DNA from: Bacillota bacterium
GTDB taxonomy: Bacteria > Bacillota > Clostridia > Saccharofermentanales > Fastidiosipilaceae
Assembly: GCA_030057555.1 (NCBI GenBank)
Contig: JASGUU010000058.1
Span: 1 to 34,953, forward strand
Reading direction: 5' to 3'
DNA length: 34,953 nt
The notes below the pieces were generated by a model that was not told the origin of the DNA, did no database searches, and was given only the letters and a program-made list of their open reading frames with translations. Position numbers and translations under genes: made by a program. This document shows positions 5,710-24,190 of this stretch, piece after piece (the stretch's first letter is position 1; every line of letters starts with the position of its first letter).

Positions 5710-6723
5710 TCAGGCCATCGTCCTCAGCATCTCGAGGCTGACCTCGTACGGCGAGGGACGGCCGGCGCACCAGTCCTCGGCGGCACGGGTCATCAGGGCG
5801 CCCATGCGCCAGATCTCGTTGGCCTGCGAGCCGGCGATGTGCGGCGTCAGGATGATGTTGTCCAGCTTATGCAGCGGCCCCTCAGGATCGGAGGGCTCGG
5901 GCCAGGTCACATCGAGAATCGCGAAGCGTCCGGGCTCCTCGCGCAGAGCCGCGACAAGATCCGCCTCGACCACCTGCGCCCCGCGCCCGGTGTTGATAAA
6001 GGTCGCCGTCGGGCTCATGCGCCCGAAACAGGCGGCATCGAGCATGCCCCGGGTCTCGGCATTGTTCGCGAGATGGTTCGAGATCACCTGGCAGGAGGCG
6101 AAAAGTTCGGGCAGACCGTCGACGAGGCGGACACCAAGACGGCGGGCTTCGGCCGCGGGCAGGAAAGGATCGAAGACCCAGATCTCAAGTTCGGCATCCA
6201 GAGCCGTGAGCTTCTCAATCACGAGACGGCCGACGGCGCCGGCGCCGATGATGCCGATGCGGGCAGCGTAGTTGCCCGGCTGCGCGCGGGAGAGACGGAC
6301 GGCCTCCCCGCGCCGGCCGGCGAGATTGTGTCGGGCTGACTGCCAGAAGCCCTTGTTCGAAAGCAGAATCGCGGCCACTGTGTACTCGGCGACGGGCACG
6401 GCGTTGGCGCGGGCGGCGGAATAGACGCGGATACCGCGTTCGAGGAAGGGGCAGGCAAAGCTCTGCACGGAGCCCGCCGCATAGAACACGGCCTCGAGGC
6501 GCGGCAGGCGTCGGGTGAGTGTCGCTGCATCAGGGGCCGGCATGCCCCAGGTCGAAAAGAGCGCCACGGCATCATAGCCGGGGATGTCTTCAAGGCTGGT
6601 GTAGAACGGGGCATCCAGGGCAAAGGCGGCGGCGAGGCGCGCCCGGCTCTCGTCGCTGTAGGCGGCCCGGATGCCGGCCTCACCGGCGGCTGTCAGGAAA
6701 CAGGCGCGGGGCTTCACAGTCAT
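5710..6723 (-). CDS. D-isomer-specific 2-hydroxyacid dehydrogenase, NAD-binding
   Basis: A 337-residue oxidoreductase that interconverts a 2-hydroxy acid and a 2-keto acid with a nicotinamide cofactor. The Rossmann motif GIIGAGAVG is at 157-165, with an acidic residue (D185 in VFDP) after the second strand, favouring NAD(H). The catalytic triad of the family is visible: R247 in INTGRG, E276 in TWPEPSDPEGPL and H295 in LTPHIAGS. It is the last gene of a tight minus-strand operon; its ATG follows the TAG of the flavoprotein gene directly (TAGATG), with GGAGG inside the end of that gene. The context suggests it handles a hydroxy-acid intermediate of the same pathway. Substrate unknown; phosphoglycerate or glyoxylate reductase annotations would be guesses. 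Confidence 0.92.
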   Translation of the reverse strand: MTVKPRACFLTAAGEAGIRAAYSDESRARLAAAFALDAPFYTSLEDIPGYDAVALFSTWGMPAPDAATLTRRLPRLEAVFYAAGSVQSFACPFLERGIRVYSAARANAVPVAEYTVAAILLSNKGFWQSARHNLAGRRGEAVRLSRAQPGNYAARIGIIGAGAVGRLVIEKLTALDAELEIWVFDPFLPAAEARRLGVRLVDGLPELFASCQVISNHLANNAETRGMLDAACFGRMSPTATFINTGRGAQVVEADLVAALREEPGRFAILDVTWPEPSDPEGPLHKLDNIILTPHIAGSQANEIWRMGALMTRAAEDWCAGRPSPYEVSLEMLRTMA

Positions 6724-8703
6724 CTACAGGTCCTCCCTTTCGCGCGCAGCGAGGCGCCCGCCTCGCCATTCGGCGAGGCGGCGGCGACGGGCGCGGTCCT
6801 CGCGCCAGACGGATTCAAACCAGGTATCGGGATCGGGTTGCGGCCGCAGGGGGCACCAGCGGGAAACGGGAGCGCTGCCGCTCGTCGCGCTGGTCTCGAG
6901 GCAGAGTTCGCCGCACTCATCGACCGTACCACGGTGCCAGCGGCCGGCGAGACCGGGCACGGCGAGAGCGCCGGGTGTTCCCGGCGGGCAGAGCACGAGG
7001 GCGGCGCCGCGGCTGCCGCAGCGGCGGGCGGAGGCGAGCATCGCCGACAAAAGCGCCCGCATCGTACGGAGGCTGTCGCCGAATTTGAGCAGGTCGATGA
7101 GCTGCTCGGGACGGGCGAGGGGGATTTTGCCCAGATCTTCATGAGCGATTTCCTCTGCCAGAGCCTCCATCGCGGCAGGATCGCGGAGAATGGCGGCTAT
7201 TTCCGACATACGGCCGGCATAGTAGCGTTGCCTGTCGGCGAGCGCCGTCTCGTAGGCGCAATCAAAGGGCCGGGCAGCGAGGCGGTCGAGGAGACAGGCC
7301 GCGGCCGGCAGCAGCAGAGCGGGATCGGTGGCGGGGGCGGGATCCAGGGCCAGGGCGGCGGCGGCGCGCGCCGAGAGGACCTGCGTCTGGTTGAGCGCCG
7401 AGCCGCCGGGTCGGTACAGCCCGAAACTGCCGGCTGCCTCGCCGGCGGCGTAGAGGCCGGGAATCGTGGTGCGGCCGTCGGCGTCCACGGCGAGACCGCC
7501 GTTATGGTGCTGGGCGGCGACGTGGATTTCCAGCGCTTCGGTCTCCAGGTCAATACCGTGATCACGGTAGAGGGCGATGGCGGCGGGGTTCATGGCGGCG
7601 AGGCGGAGAAAGGGCGTTTCCTGGGTGGCACCGGAGTTTTCGAGATAGCGGCGGGCCTCGGGCGGGATGGCGCTGAGGTCGGTCGGGTTCCGGCGGTAGT
7701 CGAGATATACGCGGCGGCCCAGAAGCGTCTCGTTCAGGACGAGGAGATCGATCTGTGAAGAAGCATCGATTTTCCGGCTGTCGAAGGGCCACTCATAGCC
7801 CTTGAGAAAGGTCAGGCGCAGGACGGTTTCAGGATCGCCGAGGGCATCCAGGAGGAAGTCATGTCCGCAGCCGTCGCTGTCGACCGAGACGTAGCGCGGC
7901 AGCACCTGCTGGTAGCTGCCCGAGAGATTCCAGCGGAAGGCGCTGGAGGCGAGGCCGTACTGCCACTGGTCGAGGTTGTTACCGAGGGCGCCGGCAGCGA
8001 GGGCGAAGCCGCTCATCCCGGTCTGTGAGACGGGATAAACGGAGTCGCGGTAGCAGGCAGCGGGCCCTCCAGTTGCCAGGATGACCTGACGACAGGCGAT
8101 CAGGAGGAGGCCGCGATGAGGCTCATGAATGCGGCCCCGCTCGAGAGCGAGAAGGCCGGCGAGATGTCCGTCGGCGTCGCGGACGAGATCGACGACGGTG
8201 CAGCCGTCCAGGACGCTTATGCCGAGGCGCCGCGACTCCGCCTCCAGGGCCTCGACCATGTAGCGGGAAGTCAGTGGGCCGGCCGAGGTCGCACGTCCAC
8301 GGGTGTCGTGGTCGGTGCGGTAGCCGACAAATTCGCCGGCCGTGTTCGTCGGAAAGGGAACGCCAAGCTCGACGAGACGCAGAAAGGCGGCCGCGGAACC
8401 GGCCGCCTCGACGAGGGCGCTGTCGCCGTGGACCGCCCCGCCGGCCTCGAGATCGCGGGCGAGGGCGCGGACGTTGTCGGGTTCGGAGCCGGCCAGCGAG
8501 AGCTTGTAATAGGTCTGCTTGTCCGAGCCGGTGTTGCGGCTCGTGCCCCATTCGCGGCCTTCGGTCACGAGGAACGGATCGGGCACGCCGAGCCGCGCCA
8601 GCTGATTGACGGCGTTGTAGCCGGCCGCGCCGGAGCCGACCACGACGGCGGACGGCTCGAGCAGCGGGAGCTCGCGCCCGTCCGGGAGAGCGATGGTCGT
8701 CAT
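6724..8703 (-). CDS. FAD-dependent oxidoreductase, fumarate reductase / aspartate oxidase-like flavoprotein
   Basis: A 659-residue flavoprotein of the FAD_binding_2 superfamily. The ADP-binding loop VVVGSGAAGYNAVNQL is at about 20-35. An RNTGSDKQTYYK block follows where the family contacts the flavin. The C-terminal half has AAQHHNGGLAVD and TIPGLYAAGEAAGSFG, the usual substrate-cap and second FAD-contact motifs. There is no Tat or Sec signal, no heme-binding CxxCH and no FMN-domain, so it is a soluble cytosolic enzyme rather than a classical fumarate reductase. The C-terminal ~100 residues are Arg- and Pro-rich and not recognised. It starts two bases after the SDR stop codon and ends where the hydroxyacid dehydrogenase begins. 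It may reduce a C=C bond or oxidise an amine or alcohol; which is not decided by sequence. Confidence 0.9.
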   Translation of the reverse strand: MTTIALPDGRELPLLEPSAVVVGSGAAGYNAVNQLARLGVPDPFLVTEGREWGTSRNTGSDKQTYYKLSLAGSEPDNVRALARDLEAGGAVHGDSALVEAAGSAAAFLRLVELGVPFPTNTAGEFVGYRTDHDTRGRATSAGPLTSRYMVEALEAESRRLGISVLDGCTVVDLVRDADGHLAGLLALERGRIHEPHRGLLLIACRQVILATGGPAACYRDSVYPVSQTGMSGFALAAGALGNNLDQWQYGLASSAFRWNLSGSYQQVLPRYVSVDSDGCGHDFLLDALGDPETVLRLTFLKGYEWPFDSRKIDASSQIDLLVLNETLLGRRVYLDYRRNPTDLSAIPPEARRYLENSGATQETPFLRLAAMNPAAIALYRDHGIDLETEALEIHVAAQHHNGGLAVDADGRTTIPGLYAAGEAAGSFGLYRPGGSALNQTQVLSARAAAALALDPAPATDPALLLPAAACLLDRLAARPFDCAYETALADRQRYYAGRMSEIAAILRDPAAMEALAEEIAHEDLGKIPLARPEQLIDLLKFGDSLRTMRALLSAMLASARRCGSRGAALVLCPPGTPGALAVPGLAGRWHRGTVDECGELCLETSATSGSAPVSRWCPLRPQPDPDTWFESVWREDRARRRRLAEWRGGRLAAREREDL

Positions 8704-8705
8704 GT

Positions 8706-9482
8706 CTAGAGCCGTCCGATCGTGAGGCCGCCGTCGATGTTGATGATCTGGCCGGTGGCAAAGTCAAAGGCGCCCGAGGCGAGGGCCGAGACGGCAGCGG
8801 CAACATCGCCGGGCTGGCCGAAGCGCGGCACGGGCGTGAGGCCGTCGTCGATCAGGGTCTGGTAGCGGTCGTGGACAGCGGCGGTCATGTCCGTGTCGAT
8901 GATGCCGGGGCGCAGCTCGAAGACCGGAATGCCCTCGGACGCGAGGCGCACGGCGAAGAGGCGGGCGACCATGGAGAGGCCGGATTTCGAGATGCAGTAG
9001 TCGCCGCGGCTGGTCGAGACGACGTCGGCAGAGACGCTGGTGATAAAGACAATGCGCGGCTGATAGTTCTCAAGACCCGCCCGCTTCCAGGCGAGCATGG
9101 CGCGGGCCGCGGCCTGGGTCAGGAAAAGGGGTCCGCGGGTGTTGACCCGGATCAGCTCGTCGAAGCTTTCAGGACTGAGGTCAAGGAGGTCGGCGCGCAC
9201 GCGTGGAGCGATGCCGGCGTTGTTGACCAGGAGGTCGAGGCGGCCGTGGCGCTCTGAAATCGCGGCAAGCAGGGCTTCGCGCATGCCGGCGTCGGCGATG
9301 TCACAGGGGATGTACTCGGCGCTCCAGCCGGCCCCGTGAAATTCGGCGAGCACCTGATCCGCTTCCGGTGAACGGGCGGAGAGAACCACGTGCCAGCCCT
9401 CGGAGGCGAGGCGGCGGGCGATGCCGAGGCCGATGCCGCGGCGGGAGCCGGTCACCAGGGCGATGAGGCCTGGCCTAGTCAT
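8706..9482 (-). CDS. short-chain dehydrogenase/reductase, classical 3-oxoacyl-reductase type
   Basis: A 258-residue classical SDR. The cofactor loop TGSRRGIG is at 11-18; its double Arg could favour NADP(H). NNAG is at 87-90, and the catalytic set is S149, Y162 and K166 in ITSVS...YCISK. The C-terminal GQIINIDGGLTIGRL is the standard end. The chosen ATG at 9482 overlaps the upstream gene by eight bases (AATGACTAG), which points to coupled translation; a longer frame to 9578 is an overlap artefact. It sits between an OYE-like reductase and a fumarate-reductase-like flavoprotein, so it probably interconverts a hydroxyl and a keto group on the same intermediate series. Confidence 0.92.
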   Translation of the reverse strand: MTRPGLIALVTGSRRGIGLGIARRLASEGWHVVLSARSPEADQVLAEFHGAGWSAEYIPCDIADAGMREALLAAISERHGRLDLLVNNAGIAPRVRADLLDLSPESFDELIRVNTRGPLFLTQAAARAMLAWKRAGLENYQPRIVFITSVSADVVSTSRGDYCISKSGLSMVARLFAVRLASEGIPVFELRPGIIDTDMTAAVHDRYQTLIDDGLTPVPRFGQPGDVAAAVSALASGAFDFATGQIINIDGGLTIGRL

Positions 9483-10839
9483 TCGACACCATCCCTGCGA
9501 TATCGCGCTCCGATTCCAGGACATCGCGGCGGTAGATGGGGCCGTAGACCTCCCGGTCGTGGATGGGGCAGCCGGCAACCGAGCCGGCGCGCATCAGCTG
9601 TGAGCAGCGGGAGCAGGTGATACAGACGCGGCGGCGGTCGATCCGCCCCTCGTTCAGGATTTCGCGTGCGAAAGAAGGATTGGCCAGGGCGAGGCGGCCG
9701 AAGCCGGCAAAGTCGACAATGCCGTCCGCGACAACTCCGGCGGCGAGCTGGGGTGCGAAGCCGCGCAGCCAGGAAATGCCGGAGAGAACCGTGCGCATCT
9801 CCGGAACGGCCCGGCGCAGGGCCTGGGCGCAGCTGACATGGCGGCGGATGCCGGCGAGGGGATGCTCGGGCGGGTCGTAGGGGCCGCCGCTGAAGGGGCG
9901 GTTGACATGGGGATTCGAGTAGGGATTCCCGATGGTCAGGTTGAGCAGGCGCACGCCGAAATCATCATAGAGTTCGCGAATGAGCCTGTTTGGCTCCGTG
10001 AGATCGGGATCCACCGAACCGGCAGGCTCGGGGGCGACACCCCAGCCGCAGGGCCAGGGATAGCCGTCGTAGAGATTGATGCGGCTCGAAACCAGAAAGT
10101 CCGCGGGCGCGGCGGCATTCGCCAGGCGGATGGCCTCGCACAGGAAACGGGTGCGGTTTTCGAAGCTGCCGCCGTAGCGGCCGGGCCGTTCAAAGGCCGA
10201 CAGGAGCTCGGAGATGAGGTAGCGGTGGCAGGCCTTGATATCGATGCCGTCGAAGCCCGCCTCAGCCGCCAGCCGCGTCGCTTCACCATAGAAGGGCAGC
10301 AGGTCGTCGAGCTCGCCGTCACTCATGACGGCGGCATCGGGGAGGCGCTTTTCGGCCTCGAAGATCGGATGGTGATAGGCGATGCGCGGGGCCGCGACGC
10401 CGCCGGGCCTCGAGTAGCGCCCCGAGTGGGTTGCCTGCAGGATGACGAGGGGATCGGGACAGCCCGCCTCGCGCGCGCTGCGCCGGATCCCGTCAACGAG
10501 AGCGCGGAAGGAGTCCAGCGTCTCCTGTGTCAGCAGCAGCTGGCGGGCGTTGGCACGGCCGTCCTCACGTACGGCGGTAGCCTCGAACCAGATGAGGCCG
10601 GCGCCGCCGGCGGCAAAGCGGCGATAGCGGCGGACGGTGAGTTCACCGGGACGTCCGTCCTCCGTGCCGTCGCAGCCCTCCATCGGCTGGACGGCAAGAC
10701 GGTTGGCCGCCCCGCGGCTGCCGACGGCAAGCGGCGTGGCCAGTATGGAAAGGTCTTCGTTCAGGGGCAGATCGAGTTTGAGTTCGGCGAGGGCCGCACG
10801 CAGGGCGTCGAGATCGCGATAGTCACAGTTGATTGTCAT
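9475..10839 (-). CDS. NADH:flavin oxidoreductase, old yellow enzyme / 2,4-dienoyl-CoA reductase-like with Fe-S cluster
   Basis: A 454-residue FMN-binding TIM-barrel oxidoreductase. The N-terminal RLAVQPMEGCDG region binds FMN, and ILQATHSGRYSRP carries the His and Arg that hold the substrate. Four cysteines near the C-terminus (C406, C409, C412, C424; CITCSRC...GC) match the [4Fe-4S] site of dienoyl-CoA/enoate reductases, with a spacing of 2-2-11 instead of the commoner 2-3-11. Unlike full-length 2,4-dienoyl-CoA reductase, the protein stops after the cluster and lacks the C-terminal FAD/NAD(P)H domains, so another flavoprotein must bring electrons, possibly the one two genes downstream. Its ATG overlaps the preceding stop (ATGA), and GGAG lies 9-12 bases upstream. 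Confidence 0.93.
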   Translation of the reverse strand: MTINCDYRDLDALRAALAELKLDLPLNEDLSILATPLAVGSRGAANRLAVQPMEGCDGTEDGRPGELTVRRYRRFAAGGAGLIWFEATAVREDGRANARQLLLTQETLDSFRALVDGIRRSAREAGCPDPLVILQATHSGRYSRPGGVAAPRIAYHHPIFEAEKRLPDAAVMSDGELDDLLPFYGEATRLAAEAGFDGIDIKACHRYLISELLSAFERPGRYGGSFENRTRFLCEAIRLANAAAPADFLVSSRINLYDGYPWPCGWGVAPEPAGSVDPDLTEPNRLIRELYDDFGVRLLNLTIGNPYSNPHVNRPFSGGPYDPPEHPLAGIRRHVSCAQALRRAVPEMRTVLSGISWLRGFAPQLAAGVVADGIVDFAGFGRLALANPSFAREILNEGRIDRRRVCITCSRCSQLMRAGSVAGCPIHDREVYGPIYRRDVLESERDIAGMVSND

Positions 10840-11483
10840 TTCTCCATCTCCTGCCGCAGTTCATCGCGGCCGAGCCGTCCCTCGAGGCGGCGGCCGTCGG
10901 CGAAACGCAGATAGGGGATCCAGCGGAGTCCTGCGGCATCAGCCTCCGCCTGATCGGCGGCGATGGCGGCGTCATGGGCGGTATCGTCGAGGGCGGCCCG
11001 GGCGGTCGCGGGGTCCAGAACAGCGCTGGCGGCGCCAACCAGTTCATCGGGATCTGAGACAGCTTTGCCTGCTTCGAAATAACCGCGAAAGACAGCCATG
11101 ACAAAGTCTGCCGCGTCAAGGCCACGGACCTGGATGGCATGCAGCAGGCGGTGGCCCGCGAGGGTCGGACCCGAGACGCCGCGGTCAAAGTCAAAGCGGA
11201 TGCCCTCAGCCCTGCCTGCGTCCGCGATGCGGGCGAGAGCACGCTCCGCCTTTTCCCGGGGCACGCCGCCCGCGAGGTAGCGCTCGAGCGCCGGGCGCGG
11301 GTCGACCACGGCACCGGGCTCGAGCAGATAGCTGCGGAAGCGCAGCCGGGGGACATGAAGTCCACGTCTGCGGCGCTCCATCAGGACGGAAAGCAGGGCA
11401 GACTCGGCGATATAGCACCAGGGGCAGACGAAGTCGAGCCAGACCTCGATGCCGGCTTCTGTCCCCCGCTCCGGGCCGCCCAC
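10836..11483 (-). CDS. DsbA/FrnE-family thioredoxin-fold protein
   Basis: A 215-residue DsbA-like thioredoxin-fold protein with the redox motif C20-P-W-C23 in WLDFVCPWCYIAE. The helical insert and a late Pro in LRWIPYLRF (the likely cis-Pro) match the cytosolic FrnE/HCCA-isomerase branch. No signal peptide or lipobox is present, so it acts inside the cell. The start is a GTG placed directly after the gnd stop (TGAGTG). Relatives include 2-hydroxychromene-2-carboxylate isomerase, a step of aromatic-ring catabolism; that is a possible role here given the neighbours, as is simple disulfide chemistry. The sequence does not decide. Confidence 0.9.
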   Translation of the reverse strand: MGGPERGTEAGIEVWLDFVCPWCYIAESALLSVLMERRRRGLHVPRLRFRSYLLEPGAVVDPRPALERYLAGGVPREKAERALARIADAGRAEGIRFDFDRGVSGPTLAGHRLLHAIQVRGLDAADFVMAVFRGYFEAGKAVSDPDELVGAASAVLDPATARAALDDTAHDAAIAADQAEADAAGLRWIPYLRFADGRRLEGRLGRDELRQEMEK

Positions 11484-16210: not shown

Positions 16211-16323
16211 GATCATCATACTGTAAACACTCTTCTGGCTTGGGTCGTGCTGGTACCGTTCCGTCAGGTTCGGTCCGTTTTCTCGACACTGCCGCAGTGT
16301 AGAGAGGACATCCAAGCACGTAA

Positions 16324-19300
16324 ATGAGGCGGACAGGCCGAAACATTGATAGAGTCAAACCGTCGGACTCCAATCGCAGGCAGCAGAAGCATGCCGGCGA
16401 CGAGCAGCGTCCTGATTCCGTGCGCCCCGTTCGCCCGCTTACACTGCAGCCCAGAGACGACAGGGATCTGCCGTCTCCCGATCCCGCCGACAGCGCCACC
16501 GATGCCGAGGCAGCCGCAGCCGCGGCTCGACGCGCAGCCGAGCGTGAGGCACGCCGCAGAGCCCCCGGCACCATCCGCCGTGTTTATGCGCGCTATCCGG
16601 AGCCGCTGATACAGCCCCAGGCTTCCGAGTCGGAAACAGCCGAAGCGGAGACCGTCGCAGCTGCCCCCGCTGCTCCAGCCGCAGAGGCCGCCGAACCGGC
16701 CCAGGTCCCTGAAAGCCCTGAGAATCTCGAAGTCTCTGAAGATCTCGAACCCATCGAGTATCTTGACGACAGCGATCCCGATGCCGACTGGCTGACCCGC
16801 CTGCAGCGTGCCGCGGACGAGGACCGCCGCCGCCGCGATGCTGAGGAAGCCAGGGAGCGCGAAGCGGCCGAACGTGAAGCCGCACGTCTGGCGGCTGAGC
16901 GAGAAGCGGCCGAACGTGAAGCCGCACGCCTGGCGGCAGAGCGGGAAGCGGCCGAGCGGGAAGCCGCGCGCCTGGCGGCAGAGCGGGAAGCCGAGGCAGC
17001 GGCTGCCCGTCGCGAAGCCGAAAGGCAGGCTGCCGCCGCGGAACAGCGCCGCAGCGCCGAAGCCCGGCGCCAGGCGGAGTTCGAAGCCCGTGGGCTGGAT
17101 CAGGCCTCGACTTCCGCTGCCGAAATCGAGATGCCTTCGCCTTCTACAGGCACCGCCGGACCGTTTCCGCCAACTGGCAGCGGCATCGAATTCGAAGAGG
17201 AGATCGCCCGGCCCCGCCGCCGCTCGGAGCGGCTGGCCCGGCAGGCAGCGCCGCCTGTGCCACCGGCCGCAGCGCCGCCTGCGCCACCGGCCGCAACGCC
17301 GCCCTTTGTGGACGGCACTCCCCCCGCCCCGGCCCGGGCCCAGGCACCGCCCCCGGCACCGGACGTGCCGCAGCCGCGCCGTGAGCCCCGGGATACGTCC
17401 GGCAGTGACCGACACCGTCAGGTTACTGCGGATGTCAGAGCCCCTTCGCTGCCCATTACGCCGCGTGAACTCGGCGAAAACCGTTCCGGCATTCGGGCTC
17501 TGCGCGAGCTGCCCCAGATTCGTCAGAGCATCAGCAGTGATCCGTCATCTTCACGCATTCCCGCTCCGCGCATCACACGGAAACTGACCCTGATCCCGGT
17601 CCCTGAGGATCAGCGGCGGCGCCGGCGGGAACTGGACCCCATTTTTTCCGCCGACTACTACGATCGCAGCCCGGATGAGATCCCGGACTTTCTGCGCAAC
17701 ACCTCACTGACGGAGGGCGAGGCCAACCGCTCTCTGAGCGAAGAGCGCCGCCGCAGAGCTACCGCCCGCCTGCCGCGCGATACAGCCGGCAGACCCCGCG
17801 ATCCGCAGACGATGGGCTCCGAAGGCGGCCGCAGGGCCCGTGTCAATCCGCCCGTGGCCCGGGTACTGCGCGGCGCGCGTCAGGTCAATCCGCTGAGCCA
17901 TGGCGAAATCGGCAGCAAAGTTCAGGCCCCGGCAACGCCGACGCGAAGCGAACTGCGGCGTCAGCGCGCCCGCAGCGGCGAGCTGCGCACGGTCCCTGTA
18001 CAGCCGCACTATAACCCCATCGAATTTGAGTCGCTCTTTGCGACCTACGAGGCGGAAATGCCGCCCGAGACGGGCAGGAGCCGCGCTGCCGAGGAGGAGC
18101 GCGAACGGCAGCGCCGCATCGCGCAGGACATAGCCCGCCTCGAGGAGCGAGCCAAACAGCACGCGGCCGCGGAGCGTCGTGCTGCCCGTACGACAGCCGG
18201 CAGCCCGCCCGTGGCCATCACGACCCGATCGACCCGGCCCATCGGACCGGTCTCGGAGGTGACAGCCGGCCCCACCGCCACGGAAACGGCGGCGGAGACG
18301 GCAGCGACCATGGGCACGGCGGCAGAGACAGCGACGGAAACGGCCACGGCCAAAAAAGAGGCGGTCCAGGAAACAGATGGCGCTACGGGCTCCGCTGCCA
18401 CTGTTGTTGAGACAGTGCCTGAAGTAGCTGCTGCGGAAGCGCAGACAACGGCTGCGCCCGCCGTCACAGCCTCCGCCTCTCCCGGGGATGCCGCGGAGGA
18501 CGCCAGTCCGGACGACAGCCAGGTGGATGCAGCCGGAGGCGCCGCCGAGCCGGAATCTGAAGACGGGCCCGAACACGAAGCAGATGCTGAAGCCGACGAT
18601 GACAGCGACGGTTTTGATCCCGGGCTCGAGGAAAACGACGAGCAGACACCCGAGCGGCGCTACCGCCCGCTCACCCTCGCACTGCTGCGCCTCGTCTCCC
18701 CCTACCGCCATTATGGCGGCTTTGCCCTGCTTCTCTCCTCCGTCGCGCTTCTTGGCATCCATCTCCTCTGGTGGGACCGCTTCAGCGGCGCCCGCCTCGA
18801 GGGTTTCCTGGGCAGCTACAGCTGGCTCGTAAGCGGCATCGCCGTCTCCCTGCTGGCCCTGCTCCTGCCGGGTCTGCTGACACTGAAAATTTTCCATCTG
18901 CCTGGCCGCCTCATCGGCGCCGCGGGCAGCGGCAGCGGCCGCACCATGCTGGCGGCGAGCCTGCTCGGCCTGCCGGCCGGTCTCGCGATCTTCGGTCTCG
19001 ACCGCCTGATTCTGGAACTGCAGGCCATGGTTGGCATTGAGGACATCGCGCCCCTGCTGCCGACGGTTCCCAAACCGGGCGGCATCCTCGACATTCTCCT
19101 GATACTCTTTGTCATCTGCATCGTGAAATCCAGCAGCGAGGAATTTCTCTTCCGCGGCCTCCTGCAGTCGGATCTGCGCCGCGGGGGCAACGCCGGCCTG
19201 GCTGTCATCCTGCAGGCCCTCGCCTATGTGCTCTATCGCGGTGATATCGGCCACATCCTGACCGCGCTCGCAATCGCCCTGCTGCTCGGCTGGCTGCGCG

Positions 19301-19758
19301 GCCGCAGCAATTCACTTTATCCGGCCATCGGCTGCCATATCATGATCAACGTTGCCTGGCACTTCGCCGCCACGCCGGCCTGGTCCGCGGTTGTCCGCCT
19401 GCTCTCGGGAACCGTGGCGGGCCCGCTGGCCCCCGGCCTCCTGGCGGCCGTCCTGCTGCTCGTCGTCGGCCTCATCGTCAGCCTGCCCCTCGGTCTGCGG
19501 GTAGCCTCGCGCTATGCCGCCTTTGAGCTGCCCTTCGAAGATGAGGAGGCACGCATCATCGCCGCCCTGCCCGAGAAGCAGCGCTACTGGTTCACCCTGG
19601 ACGATCCCGGAGAGCGCATCGAGCGCAGGCGCGCCCGCCGCCAGCGCTCACCCTACGGCGACGAACGCCGCATCGAGGAGAGCTGGCCCGGCCCGCTCTT
19701 CATGGTTGCCTTTCTCATTCTGATTCTGGTAGCCCTGCTGCCACTCCTGCTTCTATAG
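16324..19758 (+). CDS. large CPBP-family intramembrane protease-like protein with a long low-complexity N-terminal half
   Basis: A 1,144-residue protein. Residues 1 to about 790 are hydrophilic and low in complexity: Ala/Glu/Arg-rich coiled coil (three exact 14-residue repeats, 180-221), Pro/Ala stretches, and Ala/Thr then acidic segments (about 640-780). From about 792 there are roughly eight hydrophobic segments and the CPBP (CAAX protease/bacteriocin-processing) signature: E939-E940-x3-R944 (EEFLFR) and H1005-x3-N1009 (HIMIN). The middle FxxxH motif is altered to YVLYR (R972); H977 is the nearest His. The last ~20 residues form another hydrophobic segment. No signal peptide, so the long region should be cytosolic. 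The ATG has only a poor ribosome binding site (AGAGGA about 15 bases away), so the start is uncertain. The stop overlaps that of the opposite gene. Confidence 0.82.
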   Translation: MRRTGRNIDRVKPSDSNRRQQKHAGDEQRPDSVRPVRPLTLQPRDDRDLPSPDPADSATDAEAAAAAARRAAEREARRRAPGTIRRVYARYPEPLIQPQASESETAEAETVAAAPAAPAAEAAEPAQVPESPENLEVSEDLEPIEYLDDSDPDADWLTRLQRAADEDRRRRDAEEAREREAAEREAARLAAEREAAEREAARLAAEREAAEREAARLAAEREAEAAAARREAERQAAAAEQRRSAEARRQAEFEARGLDQASTSAAEIEMPSPSTGTAGPFPPTGSGIEFEEEIARPRRRSERLARQAAPPVPPAAAPPAPPAATPPFVDGTPPAPARAQAPPPAPDVPQPRREPRDTSGSDRHRQVTADVRAPSLPITPRELGENRSGIRALRELPQIRQSISSDPSSSRIPAPRITRKLTLIPVPEDQRRRRRELDPIFSADYYDRSPDEIPDFLRNTSLTEGEANRSLSEERRRRATARLPRDTAGRPRDPQTMGSEGGRRARVNPPVARVLRGARQVNPLSHGEIGSKVQAPATPTRSELRRQRARSGELRTVPVQPHYNPIEFESLFATYEAEMPPETGRSRAAEEERERQRRIAQDIARLEERAKQHAAAERRAARTTAGSPPVAITTRSTRPIGPVSEVTAGPTATETAAETAATMGTAAETATETATAKKEAVQETDGATGSAATVVETVPEVAAAEAQTTAAPAVTASASPGDAAEDASPDDSQVDAAGGAAEPESEDGPEHEADAEADDDSDGFDPGLEENDEQTPERRYRPLTLALLRLVSPYRHYGGFALLLSSVALLGIHLLWWDRFSGARLEGFLGSYSWLVSGIAVSLLALLLPGLLTLKIFHLPGRLIGAAGSGSGRTMLAASLLGLPAGLAIFGLDRLILELQAMVGIEDIAPLLPTVPKPGGILDILLILFVICIVKSSSEEFLFRGLLQSDLRRGGNAGLAVILQALAYVLYRGDIGHILTALAIALLLGWLRGRSNSLYPAIGCHIMINVAWHFAATPAWSAVVRLLSGTVAGPLAPGLLAAVLLLVVGLIVSLPLGLRVASRYAAFELPFEDEEARIIAALPEKQRYWFTLDDPGERIERRRARRQRSPYGDERRIEESWPGPLFMVAFLILILVALLPLLLL
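16861..16986 (+). repeat. three tandem 42-bp in-frame repeats
   Basis: Units start at 16,861, 16,903 and 16,945 and differ mostly at third codon positions. Each encodes a 14-residue Glu/Ala/Arg block that extends a predicted coiled coil. Copy number may vary between strains by slippage. Confidence 0.9.
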
Positions 19759-21024
19759 CGCCGCTCCGGCTGCGGAGCGCAGCAGCGAATGCTCCGGCGC
19801 CGCCGGGGCATCCGGCAGCCGAAAGCGCATCATCGGGTGCGGCGTCGCGGGGATCTCCCTCCCCTCCTCGTCCAGAATGCGCGTTACCGCAAAGCTCTCC
19901 CGGCTCCCGTCCGGCCGCAGCAGCGTGACCTCTTCCCCGAGTCGGAGCCGGCTCGTCTGCAGGCAGGCGAGTCCCGTTCCCTGTCCCGCGAAGGCATCAT
20001 CCGCCAGCACCCGCCCATACCAGACCGCCGGCTGCAGCTGGCGCACGGCGGGGCTGAGTCTGGCCTCCTGTTCCGGCCGCGTGAAGTAAAAGCCCGTGTC
20101 ATAGGGGCGGTGCGGGAGGCTCTCGAGATCCCGCAGCCAGTCGGGATCGGCATGCCAGCCGTCCGAGCCCACGTCCGCCCACAGATCCACGGCACGGCGA
20201 TAGGCGCCCGTCGTCACGGCCGCATAGGCGGCGCTGCGTGCCCGCCCCTCAATCTTGAATGCCGCGATCCCCGCCTCGATCAGCCGCGGTACATGCTCGA
20301 TGAGGCAAAGATCGCGCGAGCTCAGCAGATAGCTGCCGTGGCCGTCCTCCTCGATGGGCCAGGCCTCGCCCGGGCGTTTCTCCTCGACCAGGGCATAGGA
20401 CCAGCGGCAGGATCCGGCACAGGCACCGCGGTTCGCCCCGCGGCCGGTCATCGCATCCGAGAGCAGACAGCGGCCGGACCAGGCGACGCACATGGAGCCG
20501 TGGACAAAGGCCTCGAGCTCCACATCATCGCCGACTTCACGATGGATCACTGCGATCTCGTCCAGCGTCAGCTCGCGGGCCAGCACGATGCGCTCCGCCC
20601 CCTGATCGGCCCAGAAGCGCGCCGTCTCGGCGTTTGATACCGACATCTGCGTCGAGATGTGAATCGCCAGCTCCGGAGCGCGTCGGCGTACCCGCAGCAG
20701 CAGGGCGGGGTCGGCGACGATAACCGCGTCGGCGCCGGCGTCGCGGATCGCCTCGATCGCGGCATCCAGACGCGGGGCGAGGTCGCCGGGGCGGGCCAGA
20801 ATGTTCAGGGTCACACGGACGGCGGCCCCGGCCTCATGCGCATGCTGCACGGCCCGGGCCAGTTCCTCAGGGGAGAAGGCGGTATGGGCAGCCCGCAGGC
20901 CATAGTCGCCGGCAGCGAGATAGACGGCATCTGCACCCCAGGCGAGCGCGGCCTCGAGTTTGACGAGGTCGCCGGCGGGAGCGAGGATTTCGGGGAGCCG
21001 GGGAGCTTTGCCTGAATCAGGCAC
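19753..21024 (-). CDS. peptidase U32 family protein (RNA hydroxylation type)
   Basis: A 423-residue U32-family protein. The N-terminal LPEILAPAGDLVKLEAALAWGADAVYLA is the family opening. The central block HGSMCVAWSGRCLLSDAMTGR followed by NRGACAGSCRWSY supplies the four conserved cysteines. Known relatives (RlhA, TrhP/YrrO) help hydroxylate rRNA or tRNA bases rather than degrade protein; a collagenase role is an old annotation. The start is taken as GTG at 21,024, which has GAGGGAG upstream and overlaps the mltG stop by eight bases; an ATG at 21,048 is the alternative. The pairing with mltG is common in Bacillota. The gene converges on the CPBP-fusion gene, sharing a CTATAG that holds both stop codons. 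Confidence 0.93.
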   Translation of the reverse strand: MPDSGKAPRLPEILAPAGDLVKLEAALAWGADAVYLAAGDYGLRAAHTAFSPEELARAVQHAHEAGAAVRVTLNILARPGDLAPRLDAAIEAIRDAGADAVIVADPALLLRVRRRAPELAIHISTQMSVSNAETARFWADQGAERIVLARELTLDEIAVIHREVGDDVELEAFVHGSMCVAWSGRCLLSDAMTGRGANRGACAGSCRWSYALVEEKRPGEAWPIEEDGHGSYLLSSRDLCLIEHVPRLIEAGIAAFKIEGRARSAAYAAVTTGAYRRAVDLWADVGSDGWHADPDWLRDLESLPHRPYDTGFYFTRPEQEARLSPAVRQLQPAVWYGRVLADDAFAGQGTGLACLQTSRLRLGEEVTLLRPDGSRESFAVTRILDEEGREIPATPHPMMRFRLPDAPAAPEHSLLRSAAGAAL

Positions 21025-22390
21025 CGCCGATGGCTCCCTCGTCACCATCGCCCTGCAGGGGCTCTCCGTCCGCGGCGGTCGGCAGCGGAGCATAGCTCGC
21101 CTGCCCTTCGGCCTCCGCCTGCTGCTGCAGGGGCTCGAGATACCGGGCGATGTTGGCCTCATGCTCCTCGAGCGTGGTGGCAAAGGCGTTCGTCCCATCT
21201 CCCTTCGCCGCGAAATAGTAGAGGTTCGGCGAATCAATGTCGGGGTAGAGCGCCGCCATGATGGCATTCAGCGAGGGCGAGCAGATGGGGCCCGGCGGCA
21301 GCCAGGGGCCGAGATAGGTGTTGTAGCGCGACTCGATCGCCATGTCGGCATGCGAGACGATGAAGACCGGCTGCTGCCCGTTCAGTTTGCGCAGGTAGTT
21401 GATGGTGGCGCAGGACTGCAGGTAATCCTCGTTGTTCAGGCGGTTGTGGAAGACGCGCGAGACCTTCGCCATATCCTCGTAGACGCCGCTTTCCATCTGG
21501 ATGATGGAGGCGATGGTCATGATGGTGTCAAAGGAACGGCCCATTTCCTCGGCGCGATCGTAGTGTTTCTGGGTGATCTTGCGGTCGAAGTTGTCGAGCA
21601 GCGTACGCAGAATCTCCTCGGCGTCCGTATTCAGGTCAAAATCGTAGGTGTCCGGGAAGAGATAGCCCTGCAGCGGCCAGGTGCGCTGCTGGAGCGAGGG
21701 ATAGGCTGCAACCAGCTCGGGATTCATGGTCGGCAGGCCCTGGACGAAGCTGTAGTCGAGGAAGGTGCGCGGATCCTCGACCAGGCGATCCATCTCCGCC
21801 TCGTCAAAGACGATGTTGTTCTTCTGCAGCGTCTCCTTAAACTCCGGATAGGTCAGATCCTCCGCAAAGCGCACGCGCAGGCGCTGCGGCTTCTGCGTCA
21901 GCGTGTACATGACGGCGTCATAGGTCATGCCGCGTTTGACATAGTGCGTGCCCGCCTGATAGAGGGCGTCAAAGCCGTTGAACTTCGACAACAGTTTGAA
22001 CAGTGCGCGGTTCTCAATGACACCGAGGTTGTATAGGCGCTCGGCGATGTCATCCGGACTGTCGCCGCGTTCGATGAACAGCATGATGGCACCCGGCGTG
22101 TGCTCATCAACCAGCACGTCCGCCTGATCCGCGTCATAGGTCGGCGCCGGTGTCGGCGCCAGAATGTCGACGGGTGGGGCTTCGGTCTCGCCCGCCTCGT
22201 TTGTCGGCAGCGGCGTGGGCGTGGGCGTGGGGTTGTCACGCGCCTCGATCGCGGCGTCGTAGGCGGCGAAGCGGTCGGTCTGCTTCAGGATATAGGTATA
22301 GCCGAGCACCAGGCCGGCGCCGAGGGCGGCGACCAGAAGCAGGAATACGAGCAGAACGCCTGCTGTGCGGCTGACTTTCTTCGAGACCAT
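21017..22390 (-). CDS. mltG: endolytic murein transglycosylase MltG (YceG-like)
   Basis: A membrane-anchored lytic transglycosylase that cuts nascent peptidoglycan strands, outer face of the membrane. A single N-terminal membrane segment spans about residues 10-33. A Pro/Thr linker (54-62) and an acidic stretch follow, then the LysM-like subdomain (about 100-160) and the YceG catalytic domain. The catalytic Glu is probably E300 in ASIIQMESG, followed by the conserved VFHNRL. The C-terminus adds an Ala/Gln-rich tail. The length is 457 residues from the ATG at 22,390. That ATG has no ribosome binding site and begins six bases after a perfect extended -10, which suggests a leaderless mRNA. A GTG nine codons upstream is the alternative but also lacks a ribosome binding site. 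Confidence 0.94.
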   Translation of the reverse strand: MVSKKVSRTAGVLLVFLLLVAALGAGLVLGYTYILKQTDRFAAYDAAIEARDNPTPTPTPLPTNEAGETEAPPVDILAPTPAPTYDADQADVLVDEHTPGAIMLFIERGDSPDDIAERLYNLGVIENRALFKLLSKFNGFDALYQAGTHYVKRGMTYDAVMYTLTQKPQRLRVRFAEDLTYPEFKETLQKNNIVFDEAEMDRLVEDPRTFLDYSFVQGLPTMNPELVAAYPSLQQRTWPLQGYLFPDTYDFDLNTDAEEILRTLLDNFDRKITQKHYDRAEEMGRSFDTIMTIASIIQMESGVYEDMAKVSRVFHNRLNNEDYLQSCATINYLRKLNGQQPVFIVSHADMAIESRYNTYLGPWLPPGPICSPSLNAIMAALYPDIDSPNLYYFAAKGDGTNAFATTLEEHEANIARYLEPLQQQAEAEGQASYAPLPTAADGEPLQGDGDEGAIGGA

Positions 22391-22396
22391 GGAGCG

Positions 22397-22405
22397 ATTA
22401 TACCA
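22397..22405 (-). promoter_or_regulatory. extended -10 promoter of mltG, probably leaderless
   Basis: On the minus strand TGGTATAAT is a perfect extended -10. The last T of the hexamer is six bases before the ATG, so the expected start point is the A of the ATG itself. No -35 consensus is seen 17 bases upstream, which extended -10 promoters can do without. Confidence 0.55.
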
Positions 22406-22410
22406 GCCAC

Positions 22411-22428
22411 CCGCCACTGCTGTGGCGG
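22411..22428 (-). promoter_or_regulatory. inverted repeat at the -35 position of the mltG promoter
   Basis: CCGCCAC (22,411-22,417) and GTGGCGG (22,422-22,428) form a perfect 7-bp inverted repeat with a 4-base gap. It covers the place where a -35 would sit, so it could be a binding site for a regulator. Confidence 0.35.
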
Positions 22429-23449: not shown

Positions 23450-24190
23450 CTATCCACTACTCGTTTTCCTTATCATGATGATGCTAATGTTGTCATCAGA
23501 TCCGTTGTCAAGCGCTTTTTGCACCAGATTGGTACAGCCGAGAGCCAGATCATCTGTTTCTGCAAGGGTAGCCTGCAGCTCGTGTTCTTTGACAAACGAC
23601 CAGAGCCCGTCCGAACAGAGCAGGTAGAGATCTCCATCAAGGCACTGGCCTGTTCCGCCAAAGAGATGAGGGCTGGCACTATTGCCGCCCAGATAGCGGG
23701 TGACAACATTGCCAAATGCCCTGCCAACCACCAGGCCCAGACCCTGAAGGCTCCTGGCCATGGTGTGGTCCTCTGAAAGCTGCAGCAGGCAGGGATGTCT
23801 ATATCGATAAATTCGGGAATCGCCAATATTGAAGGCAAAGACATCATCCCCCCGAACAACAACACCCGCCGTGGTTGTTGACATGTAGCGGTGAGAATGG
23901 TCCAGTAGTTGTCTGTTGCAGAGGAATTGATTTGTTTTGTGCAGCCAGTCCACCAGCCGCTCCGCTGTCGTGTCCGCCGGATCCATGACAGAAAGGAACA
24001 AAGCAGCGAGTTCGGCTGCTTCAGCACCATATGCTTCACCCCCGACCCCGTCGAACACGGCTGCCAGACACGAGTCGTCCAGACTCAGACTCAGGCTGCC
24101 TGTCCGAATGACCTGCCGGTTGATCAGCAGCCTGTCTTCGTTCTTCTCCCGAACCGGACCCGTGACGGTCATTCCGGCCAGCTCAAGCAT
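23450..24190 (-). CDS. PP2C-type serine/threonine protein phosphatase
   Basis: A complete 246-residue metal-dependent phosphatase of the PPM/PP2C family, cytosolic. Motifs in order: R14-x2-NED at the start, VFDGVGG with metal ligand D47, NIGDSRIYRYR (121-131), LCSDGLW with D193, and SDDNIS (231-236) with D232/D233. It removes phosphate from Ser/Thr of a partner protein. No matching kinase gene lies in the window. Its ATG overlaps the stop codon of an upstream AAA+ ATPase remnant (ATGCTTGA), and AAGGAG precedes it. The original gene was therefore the second member of a translationally coupled pair whose first gene is now broken. Whether it is still transcribed is unclear. Confidence 0.92.
   Translation of the reverse strand: MLELAGMTVTGPVREKNEDRLLINRQVIRTGSLSLSLDDSCLAAVFDGVGGEAYGAEAAELAALFLSVMDPADTTAERLVDWLHKTNQFLCNRQLLDHSHRYMSTTTAGVVVRGDDVFAFNIGDSRIYRYRHPCLLQLSEDHTMARSLQGLGLVVGRAFGNVVTRYLGGNSASPHLFGGTGQCLDGDLYLLCSDGLWSFVKEHELQATLAETDDLALGCTNLVQKALDNGSDDNISIIMIRKTSSG

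Follow-up and report, generated by a model that had tools for sequence, protein, structure and literature searches.

CPBP proteases share the motifs EExxxR, FxxxH and HxxxN, which have catalytic roles. Two proteins of the CPBP fold, SpdC and ComM, are regulators of wall synthesis and division that perhaps do not need proteolysis. According to the passages cited, SpdC (LyrA) of Staphylococcus aureus controls SagB so that glycan products of the correct length are made, and is preferentially septal (PMC12272431, PMC5854430); in the cited part of a further account it is said to act via its membrane domain and not by proteolysis (PMC12214887). The same part describes ComM of Streptococcus pneumoniae as a CAAX-protease-like membrane protein acting on division, with its protease activity unproven (PMC12214887). 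It is an open question what coordinates the release of peptidoglycan with the Z-ring. Here we describe a gene at positions 16324-19758 (+ strand) of a 34,953-nucleotide stretch (the window; contig JASGUU010000058.1 of assembly GCA_030057555.1, a Bacillota bacterium of the order Saccharofermentanales), whose product joins a CPBP-type membrane domain to an N-terminal arm of 790 residues. Our best reading, which we hold tentatively, is that of a membrane scaffold resembling SpdC, which a mimic of the FtsZ tail would keep at the Z-ring.

The frame has 1144 codons, starts with ATG and is open throughout. An in-frame TAA lies immediately 5' of the ATG, and no strong ribosome-binding site was seen just 5' of it. 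The source genome, G000, comprises 2.9 Mb in 90 contigs. It was compared with its own family (f1, 12 genomes, G000-G011), which includes G001 of the same genus (g1) and G008 of a third genus (g8; the cultured strain HV4-5-C5C, isolated, in the part of the source cited, from anaerobic digestion; PMC7330241), and with a sister family, f4. Loci outside f1 were mostly located with the neighbouring MltG as query, among the best 80 of 167 relatives, and a CPBP row was obtained for 59 of the 80; the named relatives found in this way are Bacillota, mostly labelled Clostridia, and include Mageeibacillus, Saccharofermentans and Oscillospiraceae bacterium HV4-5-C5C. Motifs and arms were counted over 73 distinct rows (14 from f4, 12 from f1 and 47 from other families), with identical rows merged and the G001 paralogue L034 excluded. 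No match to the gene was found among phage records by megablast.

The membrane domain

The features of the membrane part are as follows.

18694..19755 (+): CPBP/Rce1-like membrane domain with an extra C-terminal helix, residues 791-1144 (AlphaFold2 model; PDB matches SpdC and Rce1)
19093..19353 (+): Pfam PF02517 (Rce1-like), residues 924-1010, score 56.5 bits (cut-off 22.4), E 3.5e-15
19138..19155 (+): motif 1 (EExxxR), present as EEFLFR, residues 939-944
19237..19239 (+): Arg972, within YVLYR, at the position of the motif 2 (FxxxH) histidine; motif 2 lacking
19336..19350 (+): motif 3 (HxxxN), present as HIMIN, residues 1005-1009
19687..19752 (+): extra C-terminal membrane helix, residues 1122-1143 (AlphaFold2)

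PF02517 is the only Pfam domain recognised in the 1144-residue protein. The motif 2 histidine is present in all 14 f4 rows, in one of the 12 f1 rows (G004) and in none of the 47 rows from other families, and the two glutamates, the arginine and both histidines are intact together in the same 14 f4 rows and single f1 row. The order seems to show catalysis being lost, given that f4 keeps the full motif set, and intact and degenerate forms can be compared. The loss characterises this lineage. The residues that replace the histidine within f1 are R, P, F, Q, K, L, S and Y, a variety that points to relaxed constraint, as would be expected once catalysis is no longer needed. Motif 1 has also changed, its first glutamate being alanine in G008 and G011 and aspartate in G007, and G009 lacks the second glutamate and the arginine. 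We consider it probable that the window protein is catalytically inactive. The designation protease in the preliminary description is doubtful, as the motif 2 histidine is Arg972 here and is lost in 11 of the 12 f1 rows and all 47 rows from other families.

The alternative is that the active site of a glutamic intramembrane protease has shifted, with for instance His977 standing in for the lost histidine, so that the protein would still cleave, and that the arm positions the protease or presents a substrate. The window protein keeps EExxxR and HxxxN, with His977 five residues past Arg972, and G004 (L024:378-2147), the sole f1 member with an arm and all the catalytic motifs, would fit such an enzyme. 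The G004 protein may be a natural intermediate. However, the many different residues found in place of the histidine across f1, the altered motif 1 in G007, G008, G009 and G011 and the absence of His977 from G008, though it is kept in G001, make a working protease quite unlikely.

Paralogous CPBP proteins from the source and related genomes served as controls. From 20 loci, 18 rows passed the profile (the own-genome loci L037 and L040 failed it) and all 18 have EExxxR followed by FxxxH, a count that may favour intact motifs because the profiles with which the paralogues were found contain the motifs. In a gene tree made by a quick method the 18 paralogues fall on one side of a branch with a support of only 73%; G000 and G001 are joined with G008 and G011 at 94% and f1 is not one clade, in a tree that long branches make unsure. 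A paralogous CPBP with intact motifs, at L034:4226-5914 and L016:667-2052, appears on reading the sequence to have a helix-turn-helix-like start and a P/Q-rich linker.

The AlphaFold2 model of the membrane part, built on 39 sequences, has a predicted local distance difference test (pLDDT) score of 81.8 and a predicted template modelling score of 0.83. Its best PDB match is 6u0o_A, the SpdC chain of the SagB-SpdC peptidoglycan-release complex (Z 13.1 over 228 residues, root mean square deviation (rmsd) 5.5), which is also ranked first by Foldseek (E 6.6e-3). Rce1 (4cad) comes second (Z 11.4, 204 residues, rmsd 4.1) and lies outside the first 50 Foldseek matches; the next chain has a Z of 7.1. 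As a sequence profile search of the PDB gave no more than three matches, all with the look of chance (E 0.27 to 0.36), the link to SpdC rests on the fold comparison, which supports a CPBP fold and only leans toward SpdC. On this modelling we slightly favour an SpdC-like scaffold.

The N-terminal arm

The arm, whose boundary with the membrane part lies near residue 790 as first described, contains the following features.

16324..18693 (+): N-terminal arm, residues 1-790, defined by translation, composition, a ratio of nonsynonymous to synonymous substitution (dN/dS) of 0.22 against G001 and the small share of it that is confidently folded in the model
16789..17115 (+): long single helix, residues 156-264, a coiled coil or single alpha-helix made partly of EREAAEREAARLAA repeats (AlphaFold2 pLDDT mostly 80-95)
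17449..17748 (+): conserved patch, residues 376-475, dN/dS 0.11 (residues 375-475), equal to that of the membrane domain
17677..17700 (+): FtsZ-tail-like motif EIPDFLRN, residues 452-459, resembling DVPAFLSN in the tail of the organism's own FtsZ
18001..18042 (+): short linear motif QPHYNPIEFESLFA, residues 560-573, found in genus g8 as QPHFDPIQFESLFA
18079..18195 (+): second arm helix, residues 586-624 (AlphaFold2)

Order-promoting residues make up only 14.2% of the arm, in which A, R, E, P and T are abundant. The long helix spans 109 residues, is longer in G001 and covers a region with a 42-bp (14-residue) repeat at 16855-16991. Outside the two helices the arm is mostly without confident structure in the full-length AlphaFold model; this job used an alignment of 4 sequences and gave the membrane domain a low confidence as well, so that its low pLDDT is weak evidence of disorder. 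The arm is probably mostly disordered, mainly judging by its composition. Because no signal sequence was seen and a basic stretch precedes the first membrane helix, the arm would be expected on the cytosolic side.

That a CPBP domain is fused to a long low-complexity region, as the preliminary description had it, is borne out by the 1144-codon frame, which has PF02517 only at its end and is shared with G001. The homologue in G001 has 1223 codons, the whole architecture and the same MRRTGR start, and is 72% identical overall to the G000 protein. In the arm 64% of the residues are identical, and the differences at codon positions 1, 2 and 3 are 0.24, 0.21 and 0.52. Between these two genomes the dN/dS of 0.22 for the arm compares with values of 0.11 in the membrane part and 0.10 in residues 515-580 of the arm; these ratios, from a simple Nei-Gojobori calculation, are rough since the arm dS is 1.2 and synonymous sites are near saturation. 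The version in G008 has 1060 codons. All 12 f1 genomes have at least 135 residues ahead of the membrane-domain match, and up to 933, the G011 gene being truncated by the contig end. With purifying patches near 0.1 within the arm, the start and architecture common to G001 and the presence of an arm in all 12 f1 genomes, the arm is almost certainly genuine. An artefact of annotation or frame is rejected in view of the architecture shared with G001, the selection on the arm and the in-frame stop before the ATG, and given this selection it is improbable that translation begins near residue 780. The antisense frames 16264-17415 and 17704-19254 were read as mechanical, the sense codon pattern favouring the sense frame.

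A check of orthologues, proposed with the first description, shows that the close relatives do carry the arm; the f4 proteins and 46 of the 47 rows from other families are without it. Within f4, 14-91 residues precede the membrane-domain match in 12 of the 14 rows, and the other two, with 130 and 275, look like unsupported open frames. Long upstream open frames are found in the high-GC (guanine-cytosine) DNA of the f4 genomes G182 (L092/L169), G174 (L170) and G175 (L122/L171); by reading, the proteins would be short, the upstream frames being G/R-rich or having a plausible start further in. In the other families the 46 rows have 31-78 residues before the match and the remaining one has 206. 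One protein outside f1 and f4, L165:11170-12744, has an arm of its own of about 190 residues, rich in R, K, P and S and with repeated segments. On these comparisons the arm is a trait of the f1 family that changes fast in length and sequence.

Local alignment of whole arms between genera mostly gave no signal because the composition is too biased; among the pairs from different genera only G008-G011 and, weakly, G002-G004 passed a z of 4. Short motifs fared better. QPHYNPIEFESLFA and its G008 counterpart reach an ungapped score of 49.4, where the maximum of 20 shuffles was 26.9, and QPHYNPIEFESLFA, FEEEI, VNPL and the IPxFL motif occur in the same order in the G000 and G008 arms when the full-length proteins are aligned with MAFFT. 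Beyond QPH..FESLFA, five short ungapped matches are barely above the shuffle maximum, and of these VNPL alone was taken into account, being aligned by MAFFT as well. The FESLF motif gives no hint of a partner: it occurs at 8 places in G000, and no obvious division protein is among them.

The arm could be a selected but unspecific spacer or tether, an entropic bristle plus a rigid helix, with the FtsZ-like motif a coincidence. This would fit with arm lengths that vary from about 135 to 930 residues, with most arm sequence being unalignable between genera and with the lack of the FtsZ-like motif in the other arms compared. A spacer would not, however, be expected to have patches that evolve as slowly as the membrane domain, motifs that are colinear in two genera amid hardly alignable sequence, or three FtsZ-like motifs where shuffled arms give 0.042, and we consider it unlikely. 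The idea that the arm is a scaffold or binds a partner, put forward at the outset, gains support in that the arm is conserved as a protein and shares colinear short motifs with another genus.

The FtsZ-tail-like motif

In B. subtilis FtsZ, in the results cited, a change of Pro372 or Phe374 abolishes SepF binding and a change of Leu369, Leu375, Arg376 or Asn377 leaves less than 25% of it (PMC3418248); for C. glutamicum SepF and a 10-residue FtsZ tail peptide, the portion cited gives an apparent dissociation constant of 15 uM (PMC7118173). The P-x-F-L-R-N spacing of EIPDFLRN in the arm is identical to that of the SepF-binding residues of B. subtilis FtsZ. The core [ILVM]P[ADEGS]FL occurs three times in 12 arms (in G000, G001 and G008), with 0.042 occurrences expected from shuffles of the same composition; the 12 arms are 11 from f1, among them the G011 arm cut by its contig end, and that of L165; G010, a near copy of G003, was left out. 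Residues 452-469 have a pLDDT below 50 in the 4-sequence job, of low confidence overall, and the composition of the arm suggests disorder.

The motif was also searched for across whole genomes. Written as a DNA pattern, [DE][IVM]P followed by a codon that begins with G and by F[LF] is found at 9 places in G000: FtsZ, the arm, two proteins read as folded (one glycoside-hydrolase-like, one helicase-like) and five short or spurious-looking frames. In G008 the pattern [IVM]P-x-F[LF]-x-N with an A-starting codon before the Asn is found at exactly 2 places, the FtsZ tail and the arm, and a control gave 0. A looser pattern without the A gives 7, 6, 3 and 4 places in G000, G001, G008 and G011 respectively, several of its matches falling in short frames, and does not match the FtsZ of G001, which is without the Asn. 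By reading, the only disordered places with the motif in G000 and in G008 are the FtsZ tail and the arm.

FtsZ was found in 16 of the 17 genomes searched, G004 being the exception, and the core [ILVM]P[ADEGS]FL is in the FtsZ tail in 10 of the 16, as DVPAFLSN in G000. These proteins (L177-L192; in G000, C5:40704-41660) thus often have an internal IPxFL-type motif, and 13 of the 16 have a conserved LPW end, for example ILPWFFSDNDE, as if the peptide usually found at the FtsZ C-terminus had shifted inward and another motif had arisen at the end. SepF is present in all 12 f1 genomes. In none of the 12 does an FtsA match exceed the curated cut-off, which 7 of 14 control genomes pass; weaker matches in 9 of the 12 all lie inside profile positions 160-348 of 371. 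With SepF in every f1 genome and no FtsA over the cut-off, SepF is the protein most likely to read FtsZ-type tail motifs in this family. That the arm motif binds SepF, or another receptor of the FtsZ tail, has in our view a nearly even chance.

Neighbouring genes, proposed mechanism and known systems

Downstream of the gene lie two genes on the opposite strand.

19753..21267 (-): U32 peptidase-family gene, convergent neighbour (PF01136, E 1.1e-88), its true start probably inside this frame
21017..22417 (-): mltG (yceG), encoding an endolytic transglycosylase (PF02618; TIGR00247, 166.2 bits against a cut-off of 103.4)

mltG lies within the fetched stretch in 7 of the 12 f1 genomes (G000, G001, G003, G006, G008, G010 and G011) and in all five f4 genomes fetched through the CPBP gene itself. 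The stretch from G007 has U32 only, and the G004 contig is just 3.3 kb. At G003, G010, L158, L162 and L165 mltG is the direct neighbour, with no U32 match within 3 kb. MltG is a possible partner of the membrane domain, though we put this rather less strongly than the binding of a tail receptor by the arm motif.

The mechanism that we tentatively propose is that the protein would be a CPBP-fold membrane scaffold of the SpdC/LyrA type and not a working protease, whose membrane domain would bind and control an enzyme that releases peptidoglycan, either within the membrane or outside it, in the way that SpdC does with SagB; MltG would be the best candidate. The f1 family would have gained the long, probably disordered arm, which in the genus of G000 and a neighbouring genus carries, besides the proposed FtsZ-tail mimic, a further conserved motif, which is QPHYNPIEFESLFA in G000. 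By docking in the pocket of SepF that takes the FtsZ tail, the mimic would keep the scaffold at the Z-ring, with the long helix and flexible segments setting reach and spacing. Strand release might then be brought to the division site, or the scaffold might compete with FtsZ for SepF. We infer the lack of proteolysis, the cytosolic side of the arm, the SepF binding, the partnership with MltG and the septal location. The mechanism would explain together why catalysis was lost, why there is an arm and why it bears the motif, but the motif accounts for the arms of two genera only.

Besides the intact motifs 1 and 3, His977 and the G004 protein, a number of points weigh against this scaffold held at the Z-ring. 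No Foldseek match reaches E 0.001, and SpdC is ahead of Rce1 by only 1.7 in Z, both being CPBP folds. The disorder of the arm rests mainly on composition, the alignment for the full-length AlphaFold model being shallow. Of the 12 arms compared, 9 lack the motif, so the other f1 arms stay unexplained, and as G000 and G001 are close kin the 3 occurrences are about two independent sightings, of which that in G008 (SVPGFLTN) is weaker. The motif was noticed before testing, which makes the counts and patterns partly post hoc; the A-codon pattern was fitted to G008, where the looser pattern gives 3 places, and matches to the latter in G000 include glutamate dehydrogenase and a ROK-like protein, as named and judged folded by reading. 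Near the CPBP gene both mltG and U32 are absent from the fetched stretches of G002, G005 and G009. The CPBP gene is convergent with the U32 and mltG genes and so is not co-transcribed with them, the neighbourhood may be an old gene order with no functional tie, and the linkage is biased by most loci outside f1 having been found by a search with mltG.

The protein might instead be a membrane regulator of some other partner, a sensor kinase, as SpdC is for WalK, or a division protein such as DivIB, with no relation to MltG. In the parts of the literature cited SpdC binds WalK and other kinases as well (PMC5854430) and ComM is proposed to work through DivIB (PMC12214887), and a PP2C-type phosphatase gene at 23450-24190 makes Ser/Thr phosphorylation of the arm conceivable. 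Neither a kinase nor divIB was, however, found among the 20 other window frames scanned, a part of all frames, and the mltG linkage recurs in the order; we regard such a partner as quite improbable.

The phosphatase gene just mentioned (- strand) lies upstream of mltG and a few kb from the arm-protein gene. Further away, at window positions 5710-11483 (-), is a block of dehydrogenase and oxidoreductase genes (2-hydroxyacid dehydrogenase, flavin adenine dinucleotide-binding, short-chain dehydrogenase/reductase, flavin mononucleotide oxidoreductase and DsbA-like), in DNA with a higher GC content, of about 0.68-0.69 from 6001 on. It is flanked by genes for an AMP-binding enzyme and 6-phosphogluconate dehydrogenase, which are adjacent to one another in G008.

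If the proposal is true, the FtsZ-tail-like motif would be a direct and testable physical link, of one short peptide to one known receptor. A wider form of it would be that in a lineage of Clostridia an MltG-linked CPBP protease became a dead scaffold, and that in f1 the arm mimics the FtsZ tail and competes for or shares SepF, coupling Z-ring assembly inside to glycan-strand release outside with no recognisable FtsA; this we think rather unlikely. Among the literature matches listed, neither a link of CPBP proteins to MltG, an FtsZ-tail mimic of such a kind nor a long-armed CPBP protein with an FtsZ-tail-like motif surfaced.

By fold and by description the window protein, like SpdC/LyrA of S. 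aureus, has a CPBP-type membrane domain. It differs in the 790-residue arm with the FtsZ-tail-like motif, in the extra C-terminal membrane helix and in its neighbour, which is mltG and not a gene for a SagB-type glucosaminidase; matches to the latter family (PF01832) occur in 7 of the 12 f1 genomes, with one in G000 on another contig than the window gene. The Rce1/CPBP glutamic intramembrane proteases (PF02517; 4cad) share the fold and motifs 1 and 3, but the motif 2 histidine is an arginine here. ComM, compared by description, is likewise CAAX-protease-like, and acts on division; the part of the ComM account cited mentions no long arm. With the FtsZ C-terminal peptide the arm motif has the P-x-F-L-R-N spacing in common, though the copy in the arm sits inside a membrane protein. 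In the ABC permease/CPBP fusion NF041647 a CPBP domain also ends a longer protein, but the N-terminal part, going by the name of the model, is a permease, and the window protein scores 46.9 bits against its cut-off of 435. That CPBP proteins regulate wall enzymes without proteolysis has been proposed before; what did not surface among the literature matches listed is the long arm, and above all its FtsZ-tail-like motif.

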